In this document: positions 5,223 to 38,891 of the stretch, piece by piece
Numbering within the stretch: position 1 is the stretch's first letter
Layout: each line of letters starts with the position of its first letter
Assembly: GCA_026874595.1 (NCBI GenBank)
Contig: CM049316.1
Span: 18,313,839 to 18,377,838 of the forward strand
Source of the DNA: Sipunculus nudus
Lineage: Eukaryota; Annelida; Sipuncula; Golfingiida; Sipunculidae
Direction of reading: 5' to 3'
Length of the DNA: 64,000 nt
Program-made: the position numbers and the translations under genes
Notes under the pieces: generated by a model
Databases searched by the model: none
Seen by the model: only the letters and a program-made list of their open reading frames with translations
What the model was told of the DNA's origin: nothing

Positions 5223-5286
<64 letters not shown>

Positions 5287-5676: not shown

Positions 5677-5692
5677 ATGAGGCCGAATTCAG
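5677..5692 (+). CDS. PhyH copy A, exon 1 (start codon exon)
   Basis: ATG AGG CCG AAT TCA G then donor GTGAGG. It encodes MRPNS plus the first base of D6. It is preceded by a TA-rich stretch and GCC just before ATG. The same 16 bases are present before exon 2 of copy B, and the phase (1) fits exon 2 exactly. This is why I choose this start, although the exon is too short to detect by ORF length. Confidence 0.8.
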
Positions 5693-8600
5693 GTGAGGGA
5701 AGCCTGCTGCAACCTACTTTGTATGTTATCTTTCAAAACCCTTTTTAATATTTTCAACTTAAGTTAATTAATTCCGTTTCCCTTTATTTTAATTGGAAAT
5801 ATAATTCTGGCGAACATTTATTTATATTTATAATATGTTAATGAGAAGTATGCTCTATATCTTGTTATTTCAGATTTCCATTACCAGCCTGGTCTGGAGG
5901 TATCTGAGATAATCCGGAAAGGTTTTGATGAAAATGGATATGTAATTTTTCGGTAGGTTTTAATCAAATACATTTTACAGCATAAGGAAAAATTCTATAC
6001 AGTTTAATATAATGGTTTAGACGAGTACGCCCACAGTACGCCCAAATATTCTCTGGGCAACCCCAATTTTATGACCCCACAAACTGAATCATACAGCTTT
6101 GTCCCCCGAAAAAACGATGAAACGCCCACAAGAGTACGCCCATAAAATTCTATGGGCAACTCCTATAACTACTATAGCTACTTTATTCGCTGATCACCTG
6201 TATTGCTATTGTACTCGCAAAATACGTCCATTGCTACTTTATTCGCCAAATAAATCGAACTGTTCGGTCTGCCTAAATTTCGGTCTGCGCTTACCACGTG
6301 CAACAACTATGTATTACATTGTCTAGTATATCTATTGAGTAACTCCTAATTCCAACGCCCGATACATCAGTAGTTCATATGTAACGATTATTACATAAAA
6401 TCCTACCTGTTAACGACTGTCCTCACTCAACATTTAACCAGTTCTGTACCCTCAAACATCCGTCATTCTCATCTGTCGCTAATACGGTAGTTCATATATT
6501 GACAACCAGCATTACAGACAGATAAAACATTCACCCGTAAATCTTTTTGAAGCGTTTTTAAATACATTTGATTTAGATAAGTACCATTTACGCACGGAGC
6601 GGGCTCAAGATGTTTACACATAAACAGGACGGCAGGCAGCCTAATAACAGATCAAACACTGATTTTTTTAAAACCAGTTAAATTTCTTTACCTTGTGCAG
6701 TTGATAAAATGGATATTGTATCATTCGTGAGGGTTTCAGTATTAGAAAGTTGCCATGTTGCTAATTTGCTTTCACACGTAGCTTCCTGTTAGCTGGTGCG
6801 AACGAGATAATAAAAAACTAATGTGACCTATCGGAGCTATCGTTTTACAGTTTTTAATATCCATCCATGTCATTATTGATGTTGGTGACAATCAACCGTT
6901 TTTAGGCAACTCCACTGCAGCCATGCGCCCTATTTTATTCACTGGAAGAGCCGGGAACGATGCCATGTTATCCTATTGGGCTCATTTTCCTTATTTTCCC
7001 ATTATTCCAGAGAATTCGACATTTTACGACAATATGTATCTGGAACTATATGCCAGTTAACTCGGCCTATGGCAGCTAAGCCGACCGGTGTACCCAGCCC
7101 ATATGAACTCGGCCAATAGAAATCCCGCCCTGAACAAACCTAGTCGAAGTCCCTAGACCTTTTCCAGGACAATTTCTACATATTATTTAATGTCCGTATA
7201 CCATATTAACTACAGGAAATTTCTGGGTCAGAAAGAACTGCAAAAACTCAATAGCGCCATAGAAAATGATGAGGGGGTCATTAAATATGCTTACGGCAGG
7301 GATGATGGCGCGGGCATGCGCACTCGGACGGCTCTGTGGAACCACCCCGGAAATGACATCACGGGCGTCATAGCACGGTCCCAGAAGATGGCGGGCACGT
7401 TTGAAGCCGTAAGATATATAAAGTGTTTTCAGTGTATATATTTGTAAAACCATAATTAAGGTTAATTCTTACTCAATTGTTATATTTTGATTTAATCATT
7501 ATTAAATATGGTCCATTTGTGAAGCTAAAAATATCAAACTCTTATGAACATTACATTCACTTAAAAATAAGGAACTCCTGAAACCAAAAATAAGAATTAA
7601 GAGAGACTGGGTAATCATGGCAGTGCACTGAATTATGTTATGACAATAATGTGAAAGTTCTTTTTAGTATAAAACATTATTCTTGAATAATTGTAATTAA
7701 TTTAAATATGTTAATTCTATTCTTAAATGAGCCGAACATGGAGATTAATTGTTTATCTATCCAAAAGATGTCGCCACAAGCTTATTCATACAGCTGTGTC
7801 CTAACCAAACGGGGATATGTAAATATTATACAGCGCGATTCCCCTTTGAATGTGTTCTAAGGAGAATATCATCTTGACGTATTCATAAAGAAGAATTATG
7901 TGTGTAAAATGTCCTCAACATATTCTGAGCGCTTAATTCCATATACCTCCGTCGGGATGCGAGAGTGTTATGCATTTTACTATGTGTTCTCCCTGGTTCC
8001 TATGTCTATTAGCAGCTTGTATACAATGGAAAACATAGCGGCGATTTTGATGACATTTTCAGGAGGAACGGCCAATTACACTTTGGAGATATTCTGTGTG
8101 ATAATCATATTATTTTTCATGCAAAGACGTCTTTTCCATAATGACACGATTTGATTCCTTTGTCCCAAGGTTCAAGCTGCCCAGTAATATAAATTAGTGC
8201 CAGTGTGCAAGGAGAACCCGTTTTATTAATACGCCACGCTGCATGTACGCATGTACGGTTTGTAGGCTCCGGACACATAATCTAGTTTGATTTTTCTTTT
8301 CTTTTTTTGTCACTTCAGCTTCTAGGTGGAGAGGTTTACCATTACCATTCCAAAGTGATAATGAAGAACGCCGGCACAGGGGGCTCTTATGTATGGCACC
8401 AGGATTATGGGTGGGTCATGCTTGGATTCACATATCATATGTCACTGCAAAATTTAACCTCGATAGCTTCATCTTACCAGTTTTCTGTAACTTACTGTTT
8501 GGTGGAAATATGACTTTCTGTTCCACTTATAGTTCTAACAATTTCCAAATGTCATCCAAATTAAATAAATGTCAATCATGGGCGGATCCAGGGTTTAGGA

Positions 8601-11216
8601 AAAGGAGGTTTTAAACGTAGGAGAACTTATGTAAACCTAACAAAAAGATTCCCAGGTCCGGAAAGTGGGGGGGGGGGGGGTTGGGTTCTAGACCCGCATA
8701 AATTGGTCTGAAGCCCTTTAAAAAGGTTGCTGCGGCTTAAAAGGGGTATCTGGACCCCTCCCTTGAAACCGCTTCTGTCAATGGATAAATGAATACGCTG
8801 CGAACACAAAATAAACAGGCAAAATTGACCTGATAAATGAGTGTGCAATATTTATCCGTTCTAATCATTGAATACTGACACGCCATCTCGCGGCAGGTAC
8901 TGGTACGAGAATGGTTGTCTGACGCCCAACATGGGAACCGCATGGGTCGCACTGGACAGGGCACACAGGGGGAACGGGTGTCTCCAGGCAAGTGTCAATA
9001 AACCGTTGTCCTATATGACGCATTTTCCTCAGCTTTTTCTGTAAAGTGTCATCGTGTTTGAATTATGTTCGACTATAATCTATGATCAGTTAGACTATAG
9101 TGTTTTAGTTCAGCGTGCTCTGAAGCTGCTTGACTGTAGTATAATGCAATTTAAAAAGGAGATCATGAATGGATGCTTCTCAGAATGAACACAGTGGATA
9201 TTTAAAACTGACTATAATTCGTATGTAGCCTTATTCAACAGACTGTAAAAATTTATCTTTTCATGTGCGGCCATTTTCCTGAGGCATCATGGGGATCATA
9301 TACAGTGGCGGATCCAGAGGGGTAGCTTTGGGGGCAGAAGCCCCCCCCCCCCCCCCCCCCCCAAAGACTGAAACATTGTTAACAATTTTTATCAGAGAAA
9401 ATTTTCTTTACATTATTTCCAGTTGCCGTCATACAAACATCACCCTATCAACTAAAAAAACAAAAGTTGAAAACCCAAGAAATCGTTAGGAGAAACGCAT
9501 GTCGACACCAGTATCAGGCATCTTTTTTATTCCCCCGCCGTTAGGAGAGAGGACTACTAAAATGGTCCGCGTCTGTCAGTCCTTCAATCCGTTCGTCCGT
9601 CCCGCATCATCATTGATGCCACACTTTCATAGTTAAACATATGGCCGGGGACCATTGTGACCCAAGGTCCTTGTTGTATTTTTAAATTATGAGTTTGGCA
9701 TTTTCCAACATTGGTTATAAACGTTACAAATTTCTATCTACATAATCTATTAACCGTGGCTCCCTCAAGCATTTCTCATGGGATGTTCCAGCTGTCCTTG
9801 GGCTTGGATATCTTGCTTGTGAACATGATTAAGCGTTAAAATAAAAAGCAAGCCTTATTCACCTGTCTTTATCCTAGGAATAAAGTAATGCATTTTAAAT
9901 TTCAGACGTATATATAAAAGAGATCTGACGTGTGAACGCATTAAAGCAAAAATTATAGACAAATGAAGCAACTGCACACGTGGAAAAGTAGTTCAAGCTA
10001 TACCAGTTATTCAAAATAAACGCTGGTGAGTAATGCCTTAAATAAGTAGTTAGAAAATAATATTCATTCATGAGTTATTCGTTTGCCTTTTTTAATGATG
10101 TTTAATGCAACTAAAAATGTTTATATGTATAGTTCTGTGTTTATTTTATGACTGATCAATTATTTGAGATTAAATAATGAACAAAATGTTTACATCGTTG
10201 GGCACTTGTGCTCACACCTCATTTTCATCTCTATACGATACCTAAAAGAGAGATTATTAATACATGTATACCCAAGTCTTATTTTTATTTGTAAATCAGT
10301 TGATAGAAAAAAATAATGTCCAGATCATTAATTCTTTTACTATGAATTCCCCATTCATTCTGCTTGCTCCAGTGAAGTTTTATTTGCTTTTTTTTATTTG
10401 AGTTAATTATTCCTCTACGAAGCAAGGTTTTCATGTAATTATCGACGTTGGTTGATTCGTCTGTTAGCAGCTGTACTCAACAATTATAGACGGACTTATC
10501 AGGAGAGACAGAAAAAAATCAATGTTTACCTGGATCACAATAATATCTCACAAATATATTTATAAAAAAAACCGTCTTTTTTTTTTTTTGGTTTTAGGGG
10601 ACCTTTAATTGATATAAATTTCCGAAAGGGGCGAGCAGACCGGTTATGCAAAATCGAGTTGGTTAACTTGCCCCACATTTCTCTTGAATTTATATAATTC
10701 TCGCTATAAAGTGTAAATTCACAAAATTTAAAATACACATAATATGAATTGTCTGACTTTAAAGTCTGCATTTACGTTTAGTCCCAACTTCGTTAATGCG
10801 TTTCCAGTTGTAAACTATGTCTCCGGAAAATATTATGTTGCACATCTGTTCCCATTTACAACAATTTCACAATTTACAAATTGTCAGATCGTATAAGAAG
10901 TAGGAAAATGCAAAAGGTATATTTTGATATCTATAGCCGTGGAGTTATGTTTTTGTTAGTTTCCAGTCTGCAACTTATTTAATGTTAGACCGAAACTACG
11001 ACTACATGTTTACAAGAGATTGAATGTGGCACTGGCCATTCGGTACCTCTTTCTCTCATCCATCAATAACAGTTGATTAAAAAAATAATATTCTGAAGTT
11101 TATGAACAGAAAAAAGGCAGTTTTTCGTTTTTAAAAAGGGCAACGAATTCAGTTTTTTCATAGGTACAAAGTGACTTAAACTCAAATAACGTATCCAACG
11201 ATTATAACCTTTTGAA

Positions 11217-11279
<63 letters not shown>

Positions 11280-12943
11280 CATAAGATAAATGTCTATGGC
11301 AAGTACCTGCGCCAATATATATATTATGCAAAATATCAACTAGCCCCCCCACTTGCAAAATCCTGGATCCGCCCCTGATATAGTTGAGTAATATCTGATT
11401 TCTCTGTTCATGCTATAAAAACATAAATTATTATACCTTTTCACTAGGTCATGTTGTATGTCAGACAGAATTAAGCGAACTCTTGTTTTGATGATGTTAT
11501 TTCTAGGTTATGGTTGGATCACATCGCCTGGGTCGAGTCAACCATGTTCCTGTGGGTGAACAGTTAAGAGCTGATCTGGAGAGAGTCGCGCAGGCGCAGA
11601 AGCTGTGTCCGCCATTGTATGTAGAACTGGAGCCCGGGGACGCCATTTTCTTCCACAGTAACCTGTTACATACTAGCGCCCAGAATCACAGCTCTGACCG
11701 CCGCTGGGCGTTCTTGGTAGCGTACAACCGAGCAGATAACGACCCCGTGTACAAACATCATTTCCCGCAGTACACCAAACTACACAAGGTCCGTAACCTG
11801 TTTAATTCACTTTTTAAGGGATATTTAGAACTAAACAAGCTTGCAGTTGAAACTAGAATATGTTTGTTTTAGAGTCGCAAAAAAACAACAGATAAATAAC
11901 TTCCCTTATGGTTCCCTTCGTCCACAAATTTGAGGAAAGTATATTGACTACCTTAAAAGTTGATGGGTTCACATCAATCCTAGAATTCTGATGGTTTAAC
12001 CTTGAAGATGAAGTGAAAAGTCACCAATTATCAAGCTTCTGCAAAAGATAAGCTTTAATACATACACTCCTAACGCAGTGGTCACGTTACATTTGGTCAA
12101 ATTCATTCCACTCGGCCACAACTTGGAAATTTCTGTAAACTGCACCGTTCAAAAACGTAGTTAGTGTTTTTTCCTAGCGGCGGCTGATGATTTGCTTTTC
12201 ATGCTTTCATTGCTTTATAGTTTTGATCAATTGAATCCGATTGGAACACAAAACATGATGTTTTTTCATTAGATGCTAGAGGGTCAACAGTCATTTATCT
12301 TTGTTTTCCGATTCACCTGTCCTTCAAACTGACAAGATCACGTCATGATTATTAAAAACAACAAGGAATCCACAGTTGGATCATGTTATATCATTTGAAT
12401 GAATCCTTATAATGCCAGCACGTGGGCGTGGTCCCCAAAGAGTGTTGTTCCCGCTTCTCCTATGCCGATATTGGTCCAATCCCCACCAGTCCCTTTCTGC
12501 AGATAGATTTCGGACTTCAGATTAATAGATTATCCTTAAAATATCTTCCTGTAGTCTATCTCAACCCTTGTAAAATAAAGATTAATTCCTCGCAAGCATT
12601 TCAAAACATGTGCTGCCGTCTTTCGTACAGACTGAAGCCCGGGTGTCGCAAGTTGGGTGACTGAAGTAAACTTGACTGAAGTAAAGACAAGAGCTTAGTA
12701 AATAGAAACTTGTAGAGGATTCGCAGTACCGGGTTCTCATTTTTCAGACGTGGAACGAGTTGCAACGATGAGACGTGACCACTCTTTAATGATTTTATTG
12801 AATAGCATATTGTTCTTTCTAACGGCTTGTTCATAAAATAAATTAGAACATTTTTATTGTAGAATTTCTAATTTTTATAAAGGAGATTTCCTTAAACACT
12901 CACGAAACTGTCTCTTGTTTTAACAAGATATTTTCTCTCATCC

Positions 12944-12988
<45 letters not shown>

Positions 12989-13347
12989 CACTAATAAACC
13001 AAATGTCTTACTCATATTAGATTGAACACGGACAGGAATCTGTTTCTCTCTGTTCATTGGACTTTAGTTTATATTTTAAAAAACGAGCGTTCAAAAGACG
13101 GGCTATTAATCAGAGTTCTTTATCGAGTGACCTTACAAAATGAAAAATGACGCTGTTGATTTGATTGATAAAGTCATCATTTGTGCTCTCTTGGTGAGTA
13201 AATACGGCCGAATATATTATTTGATTGCAGGTTCCTGATTCGGCAATTCTTGAATGCAGCTCGGAGACGAACATGGAGGGGAAGGATTTCTTTCTCGGAC
13301 CTAAGGCTGACTTTAGTCTGAAGAAGGTCAAGGACATGACTTCTTGA
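5677..13347 (+). CDS. PhyH-family Fe(II)/2-oxoglutarate dioxygenase, copy A (L-proline trans-4-hydroxylase-like), 7 exons
   Basis: Coding exons: 5677-5692, 5874-5952, 7216-7408, 8319-8410, 8897-8987, 11507-11788 and 13231-13347. They join in phase to 870 nt, 289 residues plus TGA. Seen: the jelly-roll core with the iron-binding HxD motif (H123-Q-D125), distal H212 in [11 protein letters not shown], and R223 eleven residues later in SDRRWAF, the spacing expected for the 2-oxoglutarate-binding Arg in PhyH and EctD proteins. There is no signal peptide, membrane segment or C-terminal SKL, so a soluble, probably cytosolic, enzyme is inferred. Family knowledge: such enzymes hydroxylate a small substrate with O2 and 2-oxoglutarate. 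Invertebrate members with the motifs VWHQDYGYW and HPQYTKL are usually named L-proline trans-4-hydroxylase-like; the actual substrate is not determined. The start ATG (gccATGA) lies in a tiny first exon, MRPNS. Intron 5 has a GC donor. Length is typical of the family. Confidence 0.92.
5874..5952 (+). CDS. PhyH copy A, exon 2
   Basis: Acceptor ttatttcAG at 5872-5873, donor GTAGGT after TTT CG. It encodes residues 6-32, starting [17 protein letters not shown] and ending NGYVIFR. Family knowledge: this is the N-terminal helix followed by the DGYVxFR-like strand. Confidence 0.92.
7216..7408 (+). CDS. PhyH copy A, exon 3
   Basis: Acceptor ctaCAG, donor GTAAGA. It encodes residues 32-96 from [18 protein letters not shown] to KMAGTFEA. 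It includes the conserved LWNHPGND stretch that precedes the substrate-side strand. GC content is clearly above the flanking introns. Confidence 0.95.
8319..8410 (+). CDS. PhyH copy A, exon 4 (HxD iron-binding motif)
   Basis: Acceptor follows a T-rich tract (cacttcAG), donor GTGGGT. It encodes residues 97-127, [17 protein letters not shown] through VWHQDYG. H123 and D125 are the first two iron ligands. Confidence 0.96.
8577..8777. mobile_element. Short TIR element (CGGATCCAG family) in intron 4, copy A
   Basis: The ends are CATGGGCGGATCCAG and ...CCGCTTCTG, imperfect inverted repeats, flanked by a perfect 5-bp duplication TCAAT (8572-8576 and 8778-8782). It has no ORF and contains a G-run. 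The orthologous insertion is present in copy B at 36297-36500, so it predates the segmental duplication. Related copies lie at 50925-51085 and 55554-55750. Confidence 0.65.
8897..8987 (+). CDS. PhyH copy A, exon 5 (followed by a GC donor)
   Basis: Acceptor gcggcAG. It encodes residues 127-157, [16 protein letters not shown] to NGCLQ. The donor is CAG|GCAAGT, a consensus GC-AG intron start; no in-frame GT donor nearby gives the right phase for exon 6. The same donor is in copy B. Confidence 0.93.
9303..11377. mobile_element. 2.1-kb non-autonomous DNA transposon in intron 5 of copy A
   Basis: It starts CAGTGGCGGATCCAG and ends CTGGATCCGCCCCTG, a 15-bp inverted repeat with one mismatch. ATATA directly abuts both ends, a likely 5-bp target duplication. 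Copy B lacks the whole segment: its intron 5 is 455 bp against 2519 bp here, and its sequence around 37040 runs straight through the junction. The interior has no transposase ORF that I can see. It includes a C-run (9341-9361), AT-rich filler and a (TA)n tract near the right end. The termini place it with the short CGGATCCAG elements. Confidence 0.75.
11222..11278. repeat. (TA)n microsatellite
   Basis: Perfect TA tract of about 56 bp inside the 2.1-kb insertion of intron 5. Confidence 0.9.
11507..11788 (+). CDS. PhyH copy A, exon 6 (distal His and 2OG Arg)
   Basis: Acceptor ttctAG, donor GTCCGT. It encodes residues 158-251, [17 protein letters not shown] to YTKLHK. It contains [19 protein letters not shown] with iron ligand H212, and DRRW with R223. 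This is the largest exon (282 nt). Confidence 0.96.
12947..12987. repeat. (TC)n microsatellite, intron 6 of copy A
   Basis: TC dinucleotide tract of about 40 bp in intron 6. Copy B has the matching tract at 38483-38529, slightly longer. Confidence 0.9.
13231..13347 (+). CDS. PhyH copy A, exon 7 (C-terminus and stop)
   Basis: Acceptor gattgcAG. It encodes residues 252-289, [17 protein letters not shown] to KKVKDMTS, then TGA. The VP(D/N)SAI opening is typical of the invertebrate subfamily. The C-terminus has no peroxisomal SKL-type signal. Confidence 0.92.
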   Translation, partial: VPDSAILECSSETNMEGKDFFLGPKADFSLKKVKDMTS

Positions 13348-13466
13348 ACCCTTGAACCTTGAACTTGGAAATTTTAAACCGATTACATGTTAGCTAATAT
13401 AAACTGGATATAGCGTTTAGTCTGAGGTCAAAATGATTAGTTTGCATCAGAAGGAAAGCTTGGTCA

Positions 13467-13472
13467 AATAAA
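13467..13472 (+). terminator. Candidate poly(A) signal of PhyH copy A
   Basis: AATAAA about 120 bp after the stop codon. It is the first canonical hexamer downstream. Copy B has lost the hexamer at the equivalent place. Confidence 0.4.
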
Positions 13473-14774
13473 ACATAATTCAACATATTATAATATCAAT
13501 GATTAGTTAATTATGTTTAGACAGGTTTCATTCTCAGATACGGATATATACTATAATGAAGTAATTACTTAGAAAATGTAATTTATCTACAGACATGTTT
13601 AATTATAGTGGCAACATTTGTCCTCCCTCGATAAAGACATGCTTTGGACTGCATGTGTATATCTTAATCGTCATCTAGACAATTTGCCATCAGCTTGTTT
13701 AGCTTTCCGTGATATAGAAAAAACTTTAGTAAGGTGATTCTTTTCACAACAACACTACCGCCTTCTGGTGGACACTAAGGAAAACAAGGCTTCGGGTAAA
13801 GGCTAGGAGCTGCTAAGAACTAAATGGTGCGCGTCTTTAACAGTGGACATTTAATGTTTTATGCCGGGGAAAGAAAATTATATGAAAAGTGTTTCCTTTC
13901 AATATTATAGCAGACCACGGGTACACGGGACCGAAGGCTCAGTGACCCGCATCTGATTGGGCTTACATTAAACTGTTCGGAGCATGCGTGAGAAATGGGT
14001 CCGTCGTTTTGCTGTAAGAAAGAATTGAAACCAAGATCTGCATGGCTACAGCACCCTGTCCAACCCTGTCTTTTTCTGGAATGCCTCAGTAACCTTTTGA
14101 AATTTTGACAGGAAAGGGCATGTCCGGGTTAAAACCTAAGAGGGTATTAATACATTATTAATCAATTATTAGTTTTTAATCTCTCTCCTGTGGTTTGGCA
14201 GAGAGAATGTATACTCGTCTTTCGCTTTGCACTCACCATATGAAAACTTTTCAGCCTCCAAAATGCAGGAGTTAATTCGTGTTGACCACTACTTTGAAGA
14301 GCGACAACAAAGGCCCGCTATAAATATACTGTACTTTTTGAACGACGTAGTTATAACAAGCAACGCAGGGAATGCCCGAGGCTAACACAAACATAAAAGG
14401 TCACAAAACGGTCTGCAAGATCTTGTTTGTGATGGAAATTTCCTTTTTGAGTCGGTACAAGGAAGCTTAAATACACAAAATGCGTCTTTCTCACAACACG
14501 CCAATCTGTACACAAGTGCGTTTCTTTTCCTTTGCAGGTTGCGGCGACACTGTACCAAATTTCACATAATCATTTTTATTCTGTCATTTTAATACAATTT
14601 TTCATAAATTTACATGACCGACGATAAAAGTGAAATAACATACCGCAATATTGCATTTGGTCGCTTTTTCATGGAGTGATGTCGGGCCACACAAAGGTGA
14701 TGACATGGACCAATCTACCCGAAGTCGGAAGAAAATAAATACTGATTTATATTAAAATATTTAAGGTCACATGG
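13473..14774. other. Non-coding: end of unit A and start of spacer
   Basis: Up to about 13951 this is 3' flank shared with unit B. From there to 14774 it is unique to the spacer. I see no ORF with coding character and no clear element ends. Confidence 0.5.
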
Positions 14775-15240
14775 TTACAATAAATGACCCCAACTCAAAA
14801 TCGCCTCCGGACAACTCCGCCCTTATGCATGACAAACAGAATGAATGTATATTCTTTACTCCCAGTACATGTTTAGGAGTACAGTAAAACCCCGGACTGA
14901 GGACACCCCTCAGGGGCGGAAATCCCGACTAACGGACATTTTTTAGGCCGACCAAGCTTTTTTTTTTTTTTTTGTATTTTCTTTTCTTTTCTTTAAGGAA
15001 CAATAAATTTATTTACAATAAATGACCCCAACTCAAAATCGCCTCCGGACAACTCCGCCCTTATGCATGACAAACAGAATGAATGTATATTCTTTACTCC
15101 CAGTACATGTTTAGGAGTACAGTAAAACCCCGGACTGAGGACACCCCTCAGGGGCGGAAATCCCGACTAACGGACATTTTTTAGGCCGACCAAGCTTTTT
15201 TTTTTTTTTTTTGTATTTTCTTTTCTTTTCTTTAAGGAAC
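14775..15240. repeat. Recent direct tandem duplication, unit 238-239 bp, with Tigger/pogo-like terminus
   Basis: 14775-15001 and 15013-15240 are nearly identical; the visible difference is one T in a poly-T run. Each unit contains TACAGTAAAACCCCGGACTG (14879-14898 and 15117-15136), which looks like the end of a Tigger/pogo MITE at a TA target, followed by CCGACTAACGGACAT words. I cannot find the matching opposite terminus with confidence. Confidence 0.8.
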
Positions 15241-16176
15241 CACTCTGGTGCGGAAACCCTGCTTTTCAGGACAACGGACACTTTTTGTCCCTTCAATGGC
15301 TAAAATCACCCCGGCTAACGGACATCCAAGTGGCCGCCCCGATCGAAATACTTTGAAATTGCACATCTGGTCTGTTTCCGTTACGCCTTATCTATCTATA
15401 TAATTAATACGGAGTTGTTGTTTTTTCTAGACCACGGTTTACCTGCTTCCGTTCTGATTTGACTCTCCAAATTCGGTAGACGTATCGGTGGTGCGCTCTT
15501 CTAGGACAAGTTTGTTTTATTTTGCGGGATTATGTCCTATTAAGCTGAATGATTAACAATTTTAATATTTCCCCATTAGGTGCCCCTATTTCTTTTGTGC
15601 TGCGAGGTCCACCACGCCTGTGACGCTTTTTCTGGAGGCGCCTCGAGGATTTTCACTTGCCTGTTAAGGTCATGGCCAGAGCGCATGTCCTGCCCAAAAG
15701 GCATTTCCGTGCAATACGCGGTCACGCAGGTCCACTATAATCCCCATTGATCCCCCATGTCCATTGTAACGCCTCTAAAGGAATTTTCTCTCTCAAAAGG
15801 AAGTAAAGGCTTTTACCCCAAAGACCACATGACTCCGCTTTCAATGCGAGGGCTTTTCAGTTTGGTCAACACTGGGCACTTAGTCCAGTGATGTGACCAC
15901 CGTTTGACAAATTTGTTATGGGTTACAGGCATGTTTATGTTTATACATTCAAATATATCTTTCCATGATAACCATGGTTTCAAACGTTCGACCAGGTCAT
16001 GTGTTTTATGAAGTTTTTCTTCAAAAAGAAGGGCAGGGTGGGTTCACATATATTTGTTAAGATCCATTGTCTGTAAGGACGGCGAAATATGAAATAAAAT
16101 ATCACCAGTACATCTTTAAATTGATAACAAATTAGAATTTGTAGTCAGGGCGTACAGACCTCCCCTCGACCAGAAT

Positions 16177-16540
16177 TAGGGCTGTATCAATATATCGATA
16201 TATCGATACGAATCGATACACGCCGTCGATACGATAACCGAAATGCGTTACATGCTGTATTGGTCGTATCGATTGATTGCTAATGAATAGGGATATAACT
16301 CTATCAATAAATATAACCATGACAATTTATAAATCTAAATGCACTGTATATTTTTGCTTTGGCTTTTAAGACTTGTTAATAAATGTATATATACATGCAC
16401 GTCAGTACTTCCATGACAAGCAGGGGCATGTGAGCGATAATAGGAGAATGATATTGACGTTCCTCTTTATTAATGAAATCGAAATCCACATCACATATTG
16501 CTACTAGGAACAAGGTACATTCACGTTTATATCTTATCTT

Positions 16541-16593
<53 letters not shown>

Positions 16594-17187
16594 TCTGTGA
16601 CCTGAACAGGGCATTTATTCGCTTATGATATATCATTTTATCTCTAATTTTTATTTTCGCAACCGGTCATAGGTTCCTCGGAACCCCCGCGTTCAACATC
16701 AGATGTCAGATAAATGGTTGAAGCCTGGTAACAAATCCTGTACATACACGAGATCGAGTGACTAATGGGATTCATTTTCACAGAAATATACAAAACTGGG
16801 TAATTACATGACATAAAAAATACAGCCTATGATCTTCCCCACCAGATGCAATAAAACAGTGTTTGTGCATGGGGGGGGGGGGGGATGCTAAGGGCCCAAA
16901 GAAGATCGAGATTTTGGTAGTCTTGATTAGATAGATTTTGACAATTAAAATCAACTTGTCTGTTTATTTATTTAATATCAAGTTTAAGCTGCTTAAGTGC
17001 ATAGCATACTAAATATTTTGTAGGCCTATATGTTAAAATAAAAAATTAAATAAAAACAAGAAACAGAGATTTTATTTAGAAATGATAAACAAAGAAAAAT
17101 AAACGTATCGTCAATACGTATCGGTATCGAATTAACTGTATCGCAATACGTATTGTACCGGACGAGGCGGACCGATACCCAGCCCTA
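16177..17187. mobile_element. Non-autonomous hAT element, 1011 bp
   Basis: It starts TAGGGCTGTATC and ends GATACCCAGCCCTA; TAGGGCTG is the shared inverted terminus. It is flanked by a perfect 8-bp direct repeat ACCAGAAT (16169-16176 and 17188-17195), diagnostic of hAT insertion. Subterminal zones at both ends are packed with TATCG/CGATA words. The interior is AT-rich with a (TA)n tract and shows no transposase. Confidence 0.88.
16541..16590. repeat. (TA)n microsatellite
   Basis: TA tract with one interruption inside the hAT element. Confidence 0.9.
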
Positions 17188-17454
17188 ACCAGAATGTCCT
17201 TTAATATCAGTCAGTTCACGTGTGTGCGTTTCATGTGTGAACACTCTCATGCTTCAGTAACACGAGTTCGCCTTGCGAGTGGCAGAACAAATAAATACAA
17301 AAGGTCCTTTGTCATAATGGTTCATAAGAAAATATATATTGTGGTGATTCTTATTACCTCAAAAATGAAAAGATATTGATATGTCTTTACCCTAACACTC
17401 TACCAATGTTCAGCAAGCCCTTTTTCGCCCTTTTTCAGAGGCGACCTGAAACCC

Positions 17455-26200: not shown

Positions 26201-26454
26201 TTGTACATACTATCCTAGGGTGTCTTGCAATAAAGTGACTTAAGTCACGTAAGTGACTCAAGCTAAAGAACATCTGTGTGTTACTATGGTAACCATTATG
26301 CCATCAAAATTGTAACAATGATATTTAAGCCTGCTCCCGGGGTTAAGTGCAGATTAATGACATTGTAACAGGACCCTAGTCCTATTATGACGTCATTTTG
26401 GTTCTTTGTCATGTCCATATCATAAGGAAGGCGGGAGATGTCGCTAACTGTGGA

Positions 26455-27614: not shown

Positions 27615-29430
27615 AAATTTAAAGTCCATAGTCATGGTAACTCCCTGCAAATTACATGCGATATCAACTAATTTAACGTCCTAAATGCCAGTAAAATTTA
27701 CTTGGACTGTTAATTAGGGGGACGTAATAGTATTTATGGTAACTTGCTGCCAGGACTATGGGACGTAATTTTACGGACAACTTTCAAAAGTGATATTACC
27801 ATTTTAAAACTTAATTCATACTCTTTACATTTGTGTTTTATTGGTTTTCTATGTAGAAGAGATTTTACAAAGGGCTATCTATCTCAAAATCTCCAGCTCC
27901 GCTTTGATTTCTCATATGACCAGAAGGGGGCGCTGTTAATCAGTCACAGGAGGCGTTTTGGTTAATAAGCAGGGGATCCGCACCAATATCTGTATTTGTC
28001 AGACCCTTGCATGTATTACCAGCAGATGTGAATTAATGCCACTTAGTAACCCAAAAGGAAAAATTGGCAATCGGTCAAAATATTGTACATTTTTACATAT
28101 GTTTCAAAGGTCACTTATAAACCATGTTAAATCTGAATAGCTTAAATTCTTTTTAGCGAAGGAAATCTTAAATATCCCTCTAACTTACATAAAAAAGCAG
28201 AAGGTATGTTATTCGACATGTGACAGTAACATATCTACGGAGATTTTACTGTTTTTTCTTTGGAATCTTCCCATGACGATAAGGGGTACCTAAATTGTTC
28301 CTTTTCAATATCCGTTTTTCATCTTTTCGTTTTTGCTTTTTAGGAAAAGTGCAATGTGAACTATATTTTGTGGCCAGAGGTCGTGTCTTATCGAAATTCA
28401 ATTTCCGGACTTCAACTATCTGTCAACGTGGGCAATTTGTAAGATAGTTTTGTGTTACGTCTGATTCCATAAGTGTTTTCCATTGACGATATGTCAGCGG
28501 GACATGAAGTTAAGGGACCGAGCATTTTGACAGGAGAGAACGCATGTTTAGGATCCATAGTTTCGCCATAAAGAAGAAATTGGTCCAGGAGTAACATAGG
28601 TTTGTAGAAACGTGTTTGCTATCCAACCCGAGAATTCAAGGGAAGTCCAGTTACATTTATTAAGAAATGGAAGTTCTCTTTAGTCGGAAATTTTGTTCTT
28701 TCATTTCTGCATTTTTAATTATAATTATTATTATTTATATTAGAACATAAAAATGCTCTCAAAAGTAACTTAGAAACAGCTATTATACTGTTCCATCATT
28801 CAAACAATTCGCAAATGCTAAAATGTTTTATGTTATATGTTTTTTTATGTTTAAAATATGCATGATTCAATTATCATTATCAGATTTAATATGTGTATAT
28901 ATAATGTATTTGATCATATGTGTTCAAAGGTGTTTTAATGTAACAATTTTCAGTGGAATAACAGGATGACTTCTGAAAACTTATCCTGAATAAATATGTT
29001 GAAATAATAATAATAAAATGAATAACAATTATTGTTTTGTACAGTGAAATAACAGAATTGTTTTTTATACTATTAGCATTTTATGTTCCATGCGCTGGGT
29101 ACCATGGTTAATCAACTGAAGCCAGAAGCCAAAATGTGTGCGTGCTTGTGTGTATATAAGAGAGAGACAGAAGGAAAGACAGAGAAGGAGAAAGAAAGGC
29201 GAGGAAGGCCAAAAGCACAATGCATTTTCTCATGTGCGAAAAGAAACAGTTTGCCTGATATATTAGAGCCCAGCGGGGGCGTCATTTGCGCCGCCGCCAG
29301 CCGAGTTAAAATCCAGCCAAGCCGAGAGTACCCGGCGGCGCTGCCGATATTTCAATGAGCCGAAGTAAGCCGATGATGTGCGGCTCCGTTTTGCTTGAGA
29401 AAAACATTAATACAAAAAGATAAATAATTT

Positions 29431-31380
29431 AAAATAAAAAAAAAGCCCAAAACAAATGTTCAGGTTTGTATTTTTTTTTGTTTGTTTCCTTAGCTGAAAG
29501 GAAATGTTGTGATTGTGTAAGTATGAAAGTGTTGGCCTTATGTGACCACAATGAGTTAAATGAAAAATGGATGCAATATGTCACATGTGATATAGAAAAC
29601 TTATTTTAGATGAAACGAATATTTTGTACCATCGTCAATGAATAGGCTTTTAGGTCAGTTAAAGCCAGCCGACATTTTACAAGCCGAGTCGAATCACCTA
29701 ACTCGGCTCACCACTAAAGTCGACCGTCTTTTTGTATTTTAGCCAGCCGCTTTTGTGTAGCTAACATGGCTCTGGGGCCTAAGATATAACACATGCCAAT
29801 GATACACCTTTGAACGGATTACGCCTTGTATGACCCTGCATTGATCAACAGACCTCACACAACATCAATAACAACGACTGGATATATCAGTCTACCATTA
29901 TCGATCAGCAGGTAGTCGATGTTAGAGGCATAGGCCAGGAGCTATCAGGCTGCATGGTTTATCGACCTTTCTCCAAATCACGAGCAACCACTCGGGCTGA
30001 GGACCTTATTAAAATCTCCATTCATTTTTTTTTGCATACGTTTGATTCTAATGAATGAACAAAGTAAATTGAGCGGCGCTAACTGATAAGGAATCAATGT
30101 CTACAACAAGAGGAATAAATTTGACATAAATAAAGTCTATGTTCCAAAGGTACGAAAGCTACAAAATAAACTCGTGACTGCTTGGGTCTGACATTCCTTA
30201 AGATTTCAATGTTATATTAGCTCCAATTGGAGTTAATGAAGTTATGAACAAGTAAGATTCCAAAAAGCAATAATCACTCACAGGTTTTAAAAACTTCCAA
30301 AATTAAATCAGACCGCCGAGAGTAAACAGACTAAAGCAAAGACCGGATTCAAAATCCCTGTTATTCTGAATTATGAATTAGACACACTTGCTGCTGTAGA
30401 CAGTAGAGAAGTGAAAGATCGTCTTGTAAACAAAGTCCATTAATTTGCTGATACATGTAATGGGAAGACCCCTGCACCCTTAGAAAATAAACGTCATTCA
30501 AAGGTATAAATACTGATATACGTAAAACCCCGGTGTTACTGGGTTTACAAATGTACGTAAACACGCAGCCACAAGAGAAAATATGATCTTTGGTAATATA
30601 ATTGGACTTTATCATTTATATAACTTTATTTCAATTAAGTAAACACCTTTGTTAGGTGTTTTTCTCAGTGAATTTCGTTTTACACATTAATCATATAGGC
30701 TTGTTTCGTGACATGACATGCCAATTATAAGTAGTATGGGAATAGGTAAACAAATCAATTAAAATATTGATACTTAATAATTTCCCCTGAATGTAAATCA
30801 CAGGGGCGTCAATATAGGGGGGATGGGGTATATATCCCCCCCCCCCCACTTTTTGGCAAGAAGGGGGGGGGGGGGCGATGGTCAATGTAATCATCCCCCC
30901 CCCCCCCCACTATTCAGATAATAATATTTATTTATTTCAAATGAAATATATAAATAAATAGAATTATAGACTTTGGTTCCATTTATAAGTTCACTATGAA
31001 ATATTAATATTTTAAATGGTTTAGAATTAACATATACCTTATTTTTTCAAAACCTTATACCTAATTGATATACATTTGATGTGTCACACAGACAATAAAA
31101 GGTATATATATATATATTATATATATGTATAAAAATGTCTGTTTTTTCCCAATTTTGACTACCCTCCATGCTTGACCCCCCCCCCCCCACACACACACAC
31201 ACCATTGCGAGTCATCTCCCCACTCTGCGAGTCATTCCCCCCCCCCCCCCCCAACCTTGAAGATAAATTGACGCCACTGGTAAATCTGATACAAAGTACA
31301 CTGAGAGGTCAGTGTATCTGGTGAACTACGCCATAAATTCCAACGGTACTCCCGAGCACAAATAGATATATACAGTAATT
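29431..31380. other. Segment of about 1.95 kb present only in unit B, with a local duplicate of the promoter-proximal region
   Basis: 30507-30800 plus 31280-31330 resemble 31440-32130 and copy A 4890-5620, so the promoter-proximal sequence exists twice in unit B. This local copy carries the 479-bp hAT MITE but lacks the other MITE (its empty site reads GGTAATATaatt near 30591). 29440-30500 is otherwise featureless AT-rich DNA with AGCCGA-type words at 29660-29770. Confidence 0.55.
30801..31279. mobile_element. hAT MITE, 479 bp, with empty sites elsewhere in the window
   Basis: The ends are CAGGGGCGTCAATATA and ...TAAATTGACGCCACTG. Target duplication is GTAAATCA (30793-30800) and GTAAATCT (31280-31287), 8 bp with one mismatch. 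The unoccupied target GTAAATCAGATACAAAG is intact in copy A at 5534 and, nearly so, in the second local copy near 32079. The interior is C/G-run rich (poly-C at 30837 and 30895, poly-C at 31178 and 31239) with no ORF. Confidence 0.88.
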
Positions 31381-31519
31381 ACGCTTGTGGATAAAGCCCT
31401 GGTCACTTCGAAAAACGTCATCCACACGTATAATACAGATAAACGGGAAGGCCCGGGTTCCAGAGTGAACTTGAATATTAACAAACAAGCGATCAAAAAA
31501 TATCTTCTTTGATAATATA

Positions 31520-31746: not shown

Positions 31747-31792
<46 letters not shown>

Positions 31793-31896: not shown

Positions 31897-32211
31897 CATT
31901 TGTAGTTAGATTTTTAGTTTAGTAAACACCTTTTCTATGCACGCAAAGTTATTCTCAGTCACATTTATCTCACACATTAATCATACAGGCATGCTTCGTG
32001 ATATGACATGACATGCATTACCAGATAAACAAATCAATTAAAATGTTGAAACGGATTATAAATTTCTCCTAAATGTAAATCAGATGCAAAGTACACTGCG
32101 TGGTCATTGTACCCTATCAGCTACGCAATATCACGTATTCAACAATAGTAAAGGATTAATACCGACTGTACTCACGAGGACAATATTATATATATACCAG
32201 AATACATCGCC

Positions 32212-32227
32212 ATGAGGCCGAATTCAG
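32212..32227 (+). CDS. PhyH copy B, exon 1
   Basis: The same 16 coding bases as copy A (MRPNS plus one base), donor GTGAGA. Upstream GCC before ATG is kept. Confidence 0.8.
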
Positions 32228-35200
32228 GTGAGAAAAGCCTGCTGCTACCTACTTTAAATGTAATCTTCCAAAACCCTATTTAATATTTCAACCTAAGATA
32301 ATTAAATTCCGTTTCCCTGCAAAAGAATTTTGCGTACTCCCTGATCCTTGCGATTATACAGGACAAAGTCTGCCTAATACATATACATGCACAAACGTGA
32401 ATTCTATTGAACCCTGTGTAGTGTATATATGAATTCGATGTTCTTTAATGACACTGGCGTTTTACCCGTTATTACAAAGTTTCTGATGGATGGCGCGCCT
32501 GAAAATGTAAATGATATTCATAATTAACAGAGAAAATCTTGGGAATGACCCTCTGGGACACAAATGACATCATTCCCGACAGTTCAAGACAAAAATAAAA
32601 AGGGCATTTCCGATGTGTGGCTATTGAGGAGTTCCATGTAAAAGTGGAGTGATAGCACCGTCAGTTATATGTAAAGACTGCTGTGAATGGAGCAAGAGAA
32701 AACGACGGCTTTGGGATGGGAACCATTATCATTGTCCGAGGGGAAAAAATGTAATTTTGCCTGATTTTGCTACACATCCTGCTCTGAAAAGCATCAGTGC
32801 AAGAGAAGAAAACATAGAGTAGGTAGAACCAAATGTTAAAAAGATCAAGTCCGGTGACCATGGGTGCAGGTTGATAGGAGACAGGGTGGAAGCATTTTGT
32901 CTAAACCAGTGGCGCCAATTTATATTCAAGGGTGGCGGGGGGTGAATCAAATTTGTATGTATATATACATTTGTATATATTTATATTTATATTATACACC
33001 TTATATTATATTGTGTGACATATTTCAAATATATTAAAATTAAATATACGGTTTTAGAACGTTAGGTAAATTTGGAGTATATGGTAATTCTAAACCTGCT
33101 TGGGATATACATTTCATAGTGAATCAAAGTCTCTAATTCGACTTATTAATACATTTCATTTCCCTATATATAAATAATATTAACTGAATATCAGGGGGGG
33201 ATGATTACATTGTCCATCCTCCCTTGCTAAAAAGTGGGGGGGGGTATTGTATATATATCCACCCGCCACCTCCCCACGCCCCTGTTCCAAACGTATTCCT
33301 TTTACCATGTTGTTATGCCCAATACAGTGGTGCCTCTTTTGGTGGGCACCTTGATAAACTTGGCACCTCTATAAAGTGGGCAGTTTCTGAAAGTCCCGTT
33401 TTTTATACTTTATATAATTTATGCTGCGATCACCGCTCCACGTAGTGGACACCTCTATATGTGGGCAGTTTGGCCCAGTCCCAAGGGTGCTCACATTCGT
33501 GACGTTTCTCTGTATATCAAATTCAAAAACCTTTGTATAACCTTTAATCTATAATGTTGCTTGTGATTTTCACAACACCTATCCGATTAAATAAAAAACT
33601 TTCCGTTTATTTTTACCCTTCTGTTAAACAGTGTTTGCAAAGTGAGAAATCATGCACTGCATGTCTTTTAAGGAAGTGACAAAATCTTGAAGTCAGTTGT
33701 CTGTCGCTTTCACAAATTTTCAGCTTTCCGCTGATAAAAAATTATAACCGAATTTCATTGTTTTATAAGTCATACCCGATCTCAGTTTTATAGGGAAATA
33801 ATATTATTTTGTAAGGGTTATTTGGAAAGAAAATAAAATATGTTTCCCTCCTCCCCTCCTCGGCTTAATGCCACAAATTGCACCATTGCACCCCCCCCCC
33901 CCCCCCGAACGGATCTAGGATTTTTATTAACAGTCCTCCCATATTACAAAATAGAAGTCTCGCCTCTTTTCCTGTAGCCAATAAATGTGTGTAGGTGGAT
34001 TTTAATTGGAGATATTATACTGGCAGACATATATTTATATTTATAATATGTTAATGAGAAGTATGCTCTATATCTTGTTAATTCAGATTTCCATTACCAG
34101 CCTGGTCTGGAGGTATCTGAGATAATCCGGAAAGGTTTTGATGAAAATGGATACGTCATTTTACGGTAGGTTTTGACACAAATACATTTTACAGCATAAG
34201 GAAATATTTTATACAGTTTAATATATTGTTATAGACGAGTACGCCCACAGTAAACCCAAATATTCCCTAGGCAACTCCAGTTTTATGACCTCACAAGCTG
34301 ATTCATATGCTCAGTGCTCAATATGCTTACACATAAACAGTACAGCAGGCAGTCTAATAACAGTTCAAACACTAATCTCTTAATACCAATGAAATTACTT
34401 GACCTTGTGCAGTTGATAAAATGGATATTGTATCATTCGTAGGTGTATCTTAGTATTAGAAAGTTGCCATGTTGCTAATTTGCTTTCACACGTGGCTTCC
34501 TATTAGCTGGTGCACATGAGATAATAAAAAAATCATGTTTCCTATCGGAGCTATCGTTTTACACTTTTTTATATCCGTCCATGGTATTATTGATGATGGT
34601 GACACTCAACCGTTTTTACGTAACTCCACTGCAGCCTCTGTAGACGTGCCCTATTTTATTCACTGGAAGTGCCGGGAACGATGCCATGTTTTCCAATTGG
34701 GCTCATTTTCCTTATTTTCTCATAAATCCACGGAATTCGACATTTCACGAATATATGTATCTGAAACTATATGCCAGTTAAATCGGCCCATGGCAGCTCG
34801 GCCGACCAGTGTACCCGGCCCATATGAACTCGGCAAATAGAAATCCCGCCCTGCACAAACCTGGTCGAAGACCCAAAACCTTTTCCGGGACAATTTCTAT
34901 ATATAATTTAATGTCCATATACAATATTTACTACAGGAATCTTCTGAGTCAGGAAGAACTGCAAAAACTCAAAAGCGCCATAGAAAATGATGAGGGGGTC
35001 ATGAAATATGCTTACGGCAGGGATGATGGCGCGGGCATGCGCACTCGGACGGCCCTGTGGAACCACCCCGGAAATGACATCACGGGCGTCATAGCACGGT
35101 CCAAGAAGATGGCGGGCACGTTTGAAGCCGTAAGATATACAAAGTGATTTCCGTGTATATATTTGTAAAACCATAATTAAGGTTAATTCTTACTTAATTG

Positions 35201-38200
35201 TTATATTGAGATTTGATCATTATTAAAGATGGTCCATTTCTGAAGCTAGAAATCTCAGACTCTAATGAACATTACTTTCACTTAAAAATAAGGAACTCCT
35301 GAAACCAGAAATAAGAATAAAGAGAGACTTGGTAATCATGGAAGTGCATTGAATTATTTTACGACAAATTATGAAAGTTTTTTAAGTATAAAACATAATT
35401 CCTGAATAACTGAATTTAATCTAAATAAGTGAATTCAAATCTGAAAGGAGCCGAACATTGAGATTAATTGTTTATCTATCCAACAGATGTCGCCACAAGC
35501 TTATTCATACAGCTATGTCCGAACCAAACGGGGATACGTAAACATTAAACAGCACGATTCCCTTTTGAATGTGTTCCAAAGAGAATATCATCTTGACGTA
35601 TTCATAAAGAAGAATTATGTGTGTAAAATGTCCTCATCATATTCTGAGCGCTTAATTTTATATACCTCCGTCGGGAGGAGAGAGTGTTTTGCATTTAACT
35701 ATGTGTTCTCCTTGTTTCCTTTGTCTGTCAGCAACTTGTATGCAACGCAAAATGTAGGGGTGATTTTGATGATATTTTCAGGAGGAACAACCAATTACAC
35801 TTTAGAGGTATTCTGTGTGATCTTCATATCTTTTTTTCATGCAAAGACGTCTTTTCCATGGTGACAGGAAGTGATTCCTTTATTCCCAGGTTCAAGCCGC
35901 CCATTTACAGGAATTAGTGCCAGTGCTTGCACACAAGGAGAACCCGTATTCTAATACGCCACGCTGCATGTACGCATAACCGATGCCGGTCTGTAGGCTC
36001 CGACTACATAATCTAGTTTGATTTTTTTTGTCACTTCAGCTTCTAGGTGGAGAGGTTTACCATTACCATTCCAAAGTGATCATGAAGAACGCCGTCACAG
36101 GAGGCTCTTATGTATGGCACCAGGATTATGGGTGGGTCATGCTTGGATTCACATATCATATGTCACTGAAAAATTTAACCTCGATAGCTTCATCTTACCA
36201 GTTTTCTGAAACATATGTTTGATGGAAATATGACTTTCTGTTCCACTCAGAGTTCTTACAGTTTCGAAAAATATTTGCAATTAAATGGATGTCAAACAGG
36301 GACGGATCCAGAATTTAAGAAAAGGAGGGGTTAAACCTGGGAGAACTTATAAAAAAACCTTAAAAAAGGAAAAGATAGGTCCGGAAAAGGGTTATGGTGG
36401 GTCCAGGCCGAATTAATTGGTCTGAAACCCCTTTAAAAAGGTTGCTGCGGCTGAAAAGGGGGGTTCGGACCCCTAGACCCCTCCTCTGGAACCGCTTCTG
36501 TCAACGGATAAATGAATAAGTTGCGAACACAAAATAAACGGGGAAAATTAACCTGATAAATGAGTTTGCAATATTTATCCGTTCTAATCGTTGAATACTG
36601 ACACGCCATCTCGCGGCAGGTACTGGTACGAGAATGGTTGTCTCACGCCCAACATGGGGACCACATGGGTCGCACTGGACAGGGCACACAAGGGTAACGG
36701 TTGTCTCCAGGCAAGTGTAAATAAACCGTTGTCCTATATGAAGCAATTTCCTCAGCTTTTTTTCGTAAAGTGTCAACTTGTTTGTTATTATTTTCGGACA
36801 TAATCTGTGATCAGTTTAGCAATAATGTTTTAGTTCCGCGTGTGTCTCTGTAACAAAGTTTGCTCTAAAGCAAATCGTGCAATTTTAAAAGTATTCTCGG
36901 AATGAACACAGAGTATTTTAAAACTGACTATAATGTGTATGTTGTCTTATTCAACAGACTGTAAAACTGTAGCTTTTCATGTGCAGCCATTTTTTTTTTC
37001 TGAGACAACATAGGGAAGCAAATATTAGCAGTATATAGATCATATTGTTGTGTAATATTTGATTTCCCTGTTCATTCAATGAAAAATAACATATATTAAT
37101 ATACTTTTTCACTCGGTCATGAAGTATGTCAGACAGAATTAAGGTTTTGACGATGTTATTAATAGGTTTTGGTTGGATCCCATCGCCTTGGCCGAGTCAA
37201 CCATGTTCCTGTAGGTGAACAGGTAGGAGCTGATCTGGAGAGAGTCGCGCAGGCGCAGAAGCTATGTCCGCCATTGTTTGTAGAGCTGGAGCCCGGGGAC
37301 GCCATTTTCTTCCACAGTAACCTGTTACATACCAGCGCCCAGAATCACAGCTCAGACCGCCGCTGGGCGTTCTTGGTAGCGTACAATCGAGCAGATAACG
37401 ACCCCGTATACAAACATCATCACCCGCAGTACACCAAACTACACAAGGTTTGTAATCTGCTTAATTCACTCTATTCTAAGTGATATTTAGAACTATACAA
37501 GCTTGCAGTTAAAACTAGAATATGTTTGTTTTCCAGTCGCAAAAAAAACAGATAAATATCTTTAATTCCCTTCCGGCTTCTATGGCCCCCTCATCCATAA
37601 ATTTGAGGAAAGTATATTGACTACCTTAAAAGTTGTTGGGTTTACATCAGTCCTAGAATTCTGATGGTTTAACCTTGAAGATGAAGGGAAAAGTCACCAG
37701 TTATCGAACTTCTCCAAAAGATAAGCTTTAATACATACACTCCTGACTCAGTGGTCACGTTACAATTGTTCAAATTCATTCTAATCGGCCATTGCTCAGA
37801 AATATCTGCACCGTTTGAAAACCTAATCAGTGTGATTTCCTTACTGGGGCTCATTTTTTGCTTTTCATGCTTTTCATTGCTTCATAGTTAAGATAAATTC
37901 AACCCGATTGGAACACAAAACATGCAGTCCTGTTACTGAAGGCTGAGAGTGTCAACAGCCATCTCTATGTGTTTCCATTTCATCCGTCCTCCTTCAAACT
38001 GGCAAGATCATGTTATGATTATTATAAAAAAAAAACAGGGAATCCAGAGTTGTATCATATTAAATCATAAGCAGACATATATGAATGCATCCTTATAATG
38101 TCGGCACCTGGGCGTGGTTATCAAAGAGTGTTGTTCCGGCTTCTTCTATGGCGACATGGGTCCAATTGCCACCAATTCCTCTCTGCAAATAGATTCCGGC

Positions 38201-38479
38201 CTTGAGATTAATAGATAACCCTTAAAATATCTTCCTGTCGCCTATCTGAACCCTTGTAAAAACCAGATTCATTTCTCGCAAGCATTTCATTTTTCGGACG
38301 TGGAATGAGTTGCAACGATGAGACATGACCATTCTTTAATGAGGGTATTGATTGCATAGTATATCGCCCTTTCTAACGGCTTGTTCATGTAATAATCTAA
38401 TATATATTAATTGTAGAATTTCTGATTTTATAACCTGGGATTTTTTTAAACACTCACGAAACTGTCTCTTGTTTTTACA

Positions 38480-38530
<51 letters not shown>

Positions 38531-38891
38531 CCCTTTTAAACCAATTTATATCTTACTCTTATTAGATTGAACACGGACAAAAATCTGTTTTTCTCTGTTC
38601 ATTGGACTTTAGTTTACATTAAGAAAAACGAGCATTAAAAATACGGTCAATTAATCAGAGTTCTTTATCGAGCGCTCTTCAAAAATTAAAAATTCGCTGT
38701 TGATTCGATTGATAAAGTCATCATTTGTGCTCTCTTGGTGAGTTAATACGACCGAATATATTATTTGATGGCAGGTTCCTGATTCGGCAATTCTTGAATG
38801 CAGCTCGGAGACGAACATGGAGGGGAAGGATTTCTTTCTCGGACCTAAGGCTGACTTCAGTCTAAAGAAGGTCAAGGACATGACCTCTTAA
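32212..38891 (+). CDS. PhyH-family Fe(II)/2-oxoglutarate dioxygenase, copy B (L-proline trans-4-hydroxylase-like), 7 exons
   Basis: Coding exons: 32212-32227, 34087-34165, 34937-35129, 36040-36131, 36620-36710, 37166-37447 and 38775-38891. They also join to 870 nt and 289 residues, with the same phases and no disrupting change. H123, D125, H212 and R223 are kept. I count 16 substitutions from copy A: F31L, K33N, F34L, G36S, K38E, N44K, I54M, Q88K, G115V, A142T, R151K, M159L, L177V, R178G, Y195F and F243H. Six of them fall within residues 31-44. Both genes therefore look functional and may differ in regulation or substrate. Intron 1 is enlarged to 1859 bp (181 bp in A), while intron 5 is small (455 bp). 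The local upstream region is duplicated, so its promoter context differs from copy A. Confidence 0.92.
32312..33995. other. Insertion of about 1.7 kb in intron 1 of copy B
   Basis: Copy A joins CCGTTTCCCT directly to TTTTAATTGG. Copy B has about 1.7 kb between these phrases. It contains the MITE at 32907-33284, a possible Tigger-like stretch from TACAGTGGTGCCTC (33314) to about 33515, and a poly-C run at 33890-33906. No ORF with coding character is seen. Confidence 0.65.
32907..33284 (-). mobile_element. hAT MITE of the CAGNGGCGTCAAT family, inverted relative to 30801-31279
   Basis: The ends are CAGTGGCGCCAATTTATA and ...CCCACGCCCCTG. Flanking 8-mers GTCTAAAC and TTCCAAAC agree at 6 of 8 positions, a decayed target duplication. 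No ORF. Confidence 0.6.
34087..34165 (+). CDS. PhyH copy B, exon 2
   Basis: Acceptor aattcAG, donor GTAGGT. Identical to copy A except the last full codon, which gives Leu31 instead of Phe. Confidence 0.92.
34937..35129 (+). CDS. PhyH copy B, exon 3
   Basis: Acceptor ctacAG, donor GTAAGA. It opens [18 protein letters not shown], the most changed part relative to copy A, and then is nearly identical to AGTFEA. Confidence 0.95.
36040..36131 (+). CDS. PhyH copy B, exon 4 (HxD motif)
   Basis: Acceptor cacttcAG, donor GTGGGT. H123 and D125 are kept in VWHQDYG; Gly115 of copy A is Val here. Confidence 0.96.
36297..36500. mobile_element. Short TIR element (CGGATCCAG family) in intron 4, copy B
   Basis: Orthologue of 8577-8777. 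It starts CAGGGACGGATCCAG and ends CCGCTTCTG. Flanks TCAAA and TCAAC are the diverged 5-bp duplication. Confidence 0.65.
36620..36710 (+). CDS. PhyH copy B, exon 5 (GC donor)
   Basis: Acceptor gcggcAG, donor CAG|GCAAGT as in copy A. Encodes [16 protein letters not shown] to GNGCLQ. Confidence 0.93.
37166..37447 (+). CDS. PhyH copy B, exon 6
   Basis: Acceptor aatAG, donor GTTTGT. Opens VLVGSHRLG, keeps [15 protein letters not shown] with H212 and R223, and ends YTKLHK. Confidence 0.96.
38483..38529. repeat. (TC)n microsatellite, intron 6 of copy B
   Basis: Perfect TC tract of about 46 bp, orthologous to 12947-12987. Confidence 0.9.
38775..38891 (+). CDS. PhyH copy B, exon 7 and stop
   Basis: Acceptor gatggcAG. 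The 38 residues are identical to copy A; the stop is TAA rather than TGA. I find no AATAAA in the next several hundred bases. Confidence 0.92.
   Translation, partial: VPDSAILECSSETNMEGKDFFLGPKADFSLKKVKDMTS

Follow-up and report, generated by a model that had tools for sequence, protein, structure and literature searches.

A 64,000-nucleotide stretch of the Sipunculus nudus genome (C11:18,313,839-18,377,838, in an assembly of 1.43 Gb and 153 contigs; hereafter the window) contains two complete, tandemly arranged genes of the PhyH family of Fe(II)/2-oxoglutarate oxygenases, copy 1 and copy 2. The two genes are genuine, look selected and are ordinary in kind, a case of plain gene duplication. 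We consider it probable that both are selected oxygenases of one PhyH subfamily, and that copy 1 has been altered at the presumed substrate site, where His243 is replaced by Phe (H243F). This replacement, together with the fact that most resolvable amino-acid changes fall on copy 1, suggests an altered substrate preference of copy 1, for which the chances, judged from sequence, are about even. The two genes arose by a head-to-tail segmental duplication, and the encoded enzyme would act on a small molecule, by hydroxylation or demethylation, with Fe(II), O2 and 2-oxoglutarate.

Copy 1 (5677-13347) and copy 2 (32212-38891) lie on the plus strand and have seven exons each, with the same exon phases; each encodes 289 codons plus a stop codon and has zero in-frame stops. 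The exons of copy 1 are at 5677-5692, 5874-5952, 7216-7408, 8319-8410, 8897-8987, 11507-11788 and 13231-13347 (stop TGA), and those of copy 2 at 32212-32227, 34087-34165, 34937-35129, 36040-36131, 36620-36710, 37166-37447 and 38775-38891 (stop TAA). Exon 1, of 16 bases, encodes MRPNS and is followed by the donor gtgag; it is identical in the two copies and has no homology support, and its assignment in both rests on inter-copy identity and the good donor. Exon 4 ends in WHQDYG with the iron ligands H123 and D125. Exon 6 carries the iron ligand H212 as well as R223, and in addition R178 and F243 in copy 1, where F243 replaces a conserved His; copy 2 retains G178 and H243. Five of the six introns in each copy are bounded by GT-AG, and intron 5 (8988-11506 in copy 1; 36711-37165 in copy 2) is GC-AG in both. 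A paralogue on contig C16 has GT-AG at the matching position. The reassembled exons and splice sites thus bear out the initial annotation, which had proposed seven exons with identical phases and 289 open codons for each copy.

Assignment to PhyH, also proposed initially, was supported by profile search: the copy 2 protein, to which copy 1 is 94% identical, matched PF05721 over residues 23-223 at 116.7 bits, the cut-off being 22. By scanning bacterial and archaeal genomes with the patterns WHQDYGY and LWNHP, we found at least 577 relatives and kept the best 80, ranked by likeness to copy 2. These are uncharacterised bacterial PhyH proteins (L019-L098) from Alphaproteobacteria, Burkholderiales, Verrucomicrobiota, Acidobacteriota and others, 43-56% identical to the window protein in the best segment, which spans most of the length. 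They share with the window genes the iron ligands, WHQDYGYWY and GRxxH, and nearly all of them HHPxYT. The HxD...H triad and the distal arginine correspond to H123, D125, H212 and R223 in both copies and in all 80 kept homologues, a conservation that for H123 and D125 is partly by construction because both lie inside the pattern WHQDYGY. R223 would bind 2-oxoglutarate. The initial claim that both copies have all catalytic residues is to be corrected: these four are retained, but copy 1 has Phe at position 243, which is His in nearly all relatives examined.

Self-comparison of the window and its flanks delimited two head-to-tail units on the plus strand, 71 bases apart, from -3868 to 13950 (copy 1) and from 14022 to 39507 (copy 2) in window numbering. 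The first begins 3.9 kb to the left of the window (locus L011), its in-window part being 1-13950, and the duplicated unit is larger than had earlier been stated. Colinear blocks between the units are 75-91% identical. Stretches without an aligned counterpart occur at 6094-6602 and 9296-11377 in the copy 1 unit, and at 15848-17248, 19403-23370, 26454-27734, 29439-31383 (in part) and 32319-33998 in the copy 2 unit, which is longer through having more of them.

The coding sequences differ at 40 of 870 bases (9, 5 and 26 at codon positions 1, 2 and 3), and the proteins at 16 residues (273 of 289 identical, 94%); the sixteen substitutions of the initial annotation are thus amino-acid changes and not the total at the DNA level. 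Noncoding divergence was 11.2% (1128 of 10,038 aligned bases), and a second estimate, which excludes the region from -17 to 899, with the near-identical stretch inside it, and a pair of short blocks to the left of the window, gave 11.7% (1422 of 12,156 bases). Introns and flanks are about 88% identical wherever they align, in keeping with the shared intron sequence first noticed. Across three methods, synonymous divergence (dS) was 0.11-0.125 and nonsynonymous divergence (dN) 0.023-0.027 (NG86: dN 0.026, dS 0.125), giving a dN/dS between the copies of about 0.2. Coding silent sites and introns agree, so that "recent", the term originally applied to this duplication, holds only in the loose sense of about 12% divergence.

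At that level of silent and intron divergence a neutral copy would be expected to be broken. We simulated neutral evolution, taking substitution and frameshift rates from those observed in noncoding sequence, under a simple model with equal rates and copy 2 as the ancestor: 10 of 5000 copies remained open, 4890 being lost to frameshift and 100 to stops. A single neutral copy was predicted to accumulate about 38 changes at the amino-acid level, and never fewer than 20 in 3000 trials, against 16 observed over both copies. Despite the simplicity of the model, the margin is wide, and the way the two copies have changed points to purifying selection on each. That one copy is a decaying pseudogene still open by chance is thus very improbable; the heavier share of amino-acid change on copy 1 would fit such decay, but only those 10 simulated copies escaped disruption, and the observed changes over both copies fall below the minimum for a single neutral one. 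The retention of two open copies, as initially described, is supported by the intact frames and by the simulation.

The difference at residue 243 is central to our interpretation. His occupies this position in copy 2, in all 80 kept bacterial homologues and in four of the five other paralogues in the genome, and Phe occupies it in copy 1; two bases of the codon differ between the copies, and the position lies in neither search pattern. Residue 243 aligns in three of three MAFFT modes with Arg242 of the leucine 5-hydroxylase GriE, which is reported to hold the carboxylate of the amino acid by a salt bridge (PMC5676206). Copy 2 would have retained the ancestral pocket, with H243 where GriE Arg242 grips the carboxylate, and copy 1 would have exchanged His243 for Phe. 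When the 16 differences were polarised by the other paralogues, eight were derived in copy 1, two in copy 2 (one of them, position 31, being at an exon edge and unsure) and six were unresolved. Maximum-likelihood (ML) branch lengths were 0.068 for copy 1 and about 0 for copy 2.

Several observations weigh against a functional reading of this difference. The paralogue on C16 has Cys at 243, so variation at this position may simply be tolerated in animals. The kept set may contain His at 243 too often, since it was ranked by its likeness to copy 2, and the search patterns contributed to the conservation of H123 and D125. The placement of residue 243 in the substrate pocket is itself presumed, by sequence alignment. 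The split of eight to two is not significant (two-sided sign test, p 0.11), and with the C16 gene alone as reference, the base differences that could be resolved, of whatever kind, divided 9 to 7. Position 178 is Gly in all 80 kept bacteria and Arg in copy 1, and is Gly, Gln or Ala among the paralogues; it had been considered as a second site of specialisation and was dropped because of this variation.

These points bear on an alternative to which we give somewhat less than an even chance: dosage or neutral subfunctionalisation, in which both copies catalyse the same reaction and H243F is tolerated. Consistent with it are the identity of 273 of the 289 residues, the lack of H243 in the C16 paralogue as well, and the non-significant polarisation, but the retention of His in all 80 kept bacteria and four of five other paralogues, and the two-base difference between the 243 codons, are harder to accommodate. 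The initial annotation had left dosage and functional specialisation side by side. That two copies were kept open stands, and H243F in copy 1 suggests specialisation rather than mere dosage. A stronger form of our interpretation seems to us rather unlikely: copy 1 would be an emerging new enzyme whose accepted substrate was switched by H243F, in a PhyH subfamily of animals that is separate from PHYH and PHYHD1. If it were true, the independent H243C on C16 would be a second such substrate switch.

The same position bears on the label "proline 4-hydroxylase-like", which the initial annotation had given to these genes. GriE (PDB 5nch) is the best solved relative (E 1.5e-17), and its iron triad, His110, Asp112 and His210, aligns with H123, D125 and H212; by alignment, the lid region of the window protein is shorter than that of GriE by 10 residues. 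The carboxylate-binding arginine of GriE is absent from both copies, from the five paralogues and from the 80 kept bacterial homologues, position 243 being occupied by Phe (copy 1) or His (copy 2). In addition, the copy 2 protein falls short of the cut-off of each of the six NCBIfam models listed for it. Among them, the model TIGR02408 for ectoine hydroxylase (EctD), an enzyme that like the window genes belongs to the PhyH family, scored 67.2 bits, far below its equivalog cut-off of 336.5, and the methylphosphonate hydroxylase model NF052437 scored 45.5 bits against 500. A bacterial homologue was likewise below the cut-offs of the models listed for it. The phrase "L-proline trans-4-hydroxylase-like" was not found in the literature searched. 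Because neither copy has an equivalent of GriE Arg242, the amino-acid or proline hydroxylase label is unsupported, and we rejected identity as a proline or leucine hydroxylase on the missing arginine, no proline hydroxylase sequence having been compared directly under that name.

A hydroxylase of free amino acids, of the proline or leucine type, is therefore quite improbable even with GriE as the best solved relative. In a quick ML tree, both GriE and 7dt0, which we take to be a proline hydroxylase, fell far outside the subfamily, on a branch of about five changes per column.

Nor do the window genes correspond to the named human members of the family. Against the whole protein, human PHYHD1 (2opw) gave only 33.4 bits and human PHYH (2a1x) only 41.9 bits. 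Both have better separate homologues in the genome: with PHYHD1, a single exon of 44 residues at C5:34.33 Mb scores 66.4 bits, and with PHYH, a single exon of 64 residues at C1:45.14 Mb scores 109 bits. The window protein is thus not the closest to either enzyme among the PhyH genes of this genome. The richness in introns marks the window genes as eukaryotic, and the presence of separate PHYH and PHYHD1 homologues would suit an animal. PHYH itself seems to be duplicated in the genome as well: two loci with near-identical exons lie in opposite orientation at C1:45137655-45195687 (L002, L003, L005, L006), of which L003 was tested and matches the human phytanoyl-CoA hydroxylase.

PHYHD1 and many PhyH proteins of animal, plant, fungal, bacterial and viral origin are reported to demethylate free 2'-O-methyl nucleosides, and human PHYH to be inactive on them (PMC12709175), so that the activity is not family-wide. 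By analogy, this reaction would be a fair candidate for the window genes even though they are not PHYHD1. We regard it as improbable that they encode a PHYHD1-like demethylase of free 2'-O-methyl nucleosides; the breadth of the reported activity speaks for this possibility, but the similarity to PHYHD1 is weak, a distinct PHYHD1 homologue is present on C5, and the inactivity of human PHYH in the same source shows that membership of the family does not imply the reaction.

We then placed the pair among its relatives. The genes belong to one branch of a large PhyH subfamily that is uncharacterised and for the most part bacterial, apart from PHYH and PHYHD1. At least seven loci of the subfamily, including the window pair, are present in the genome, with three on C15, one at C5:7.80 Mb and one on C16. 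In the ML tree, the window pair and the C16 gene formed one clade (SH-like approximate likelihood-ratio test (SH-aLRT) support 97) beside Pseudomonadota (87). Without the window pair the C16 gene had no supported place, and without the C16 gene the window pair belonged to no supported group beyond itself; the clade is thus open to long-branch attraction. Five comparable intron positions are common to the window genes and the C16 gene, and independently support their common descent. The C5 gene does not share all intron positions, having no intron at the exon 2/3 boundary. Two residues near-invariant in the bacterial homologues, W120 and C229, are replaced in both window copies; with positions 91 and 119, there are four near-invariant positions besides 243 at which both copies depart from the bacterial set, indicating that the whole branch of window genes has drifted from the bacterial pattern.

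The three C15 loci (C15:50365000-50392500; L129-L131) form a second cluster of the subfamily, two of them on the minus strand and the third on the plus strand; the middle one is apparently partial, only pieces of exons 3 and 6 having been found. An intronless PhyH frame of 288 residues at C136:76139-79801 (L001), on an 82-kb contig, is 24% identical to the window protein, and this contig is possibly bacterial within the assembly. Near the bacterial homologues, sugar-type oxidoreductases of the GFO_IDH_MocA family were encoded in 13 of 107 scanned neighbouring frames (of 153), a weak signal with no background control that gives a faint hint of sugar metabolism.

Upstream of copy 1, a stretch at 299-769 is nearly identical to about 23702-24162 in the copy 2 unit, with one substitution against an expectation of about 55 at 11.7% divergence; it contains a 9-base deletion and has a sharp right edge. 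The part from about 385 onwards overlaps with a dispersed repeat, members of which lie at 385-800 and about 23780-24190. Of 1518 candidate matches to this repeat across the genome, 40 were scored; 38 of these lie outside the window and showed 75-80% identity, and the copy 2 unit showed 96% to window positions 285-800. Gene conversion between the tandem units is the simplest account, and a likely one. The internal deletion makes strong constraint less likely, and a conserved control element was dropped as an explanation, given the repeat overlap and the sharp right edge, which fits gene conversion.

Elsewhere in the window, a 238-base unit occurs twice at 14775-15240 (99% alike), just within the copy 2 tandem unit. 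An inverted repeat at 43079-44994, with 545-base arms of 95% identity about 0.8 kb apart, resembles a long-terminal-inverted-repeat transposon. At 60226-61468 lies a degenerate tandem repeat of 48/141/189 bases, whose plus-strand consensus reads lysine-, glutamate- and aspartate-rich. A Pfam scan of 84 open segments, which remained of the 280 passing a length and complexity filter once those over known exons and others had been set aside, gave one weak match at E <= 0.01 (UPF0146, E 0.0039), and an Rfam scan of the window at gathering scores gave zero matches.

Taken together, these results add two things to an ordinary duplication: the difference H243F and a corrected reading of the proline label. 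Few tandem duplicates are remarkable; the two window copies form a clean natural pair that differs at a position near-invariant among the relatives examined and aligned with a known substrate contact. No description of the reaction of this animal PhyH subfamily was found in the literature searched, and comparison of the two copies could show which substrate is used by an uncharacterised PhyH subfamily that is common to many bacteria.

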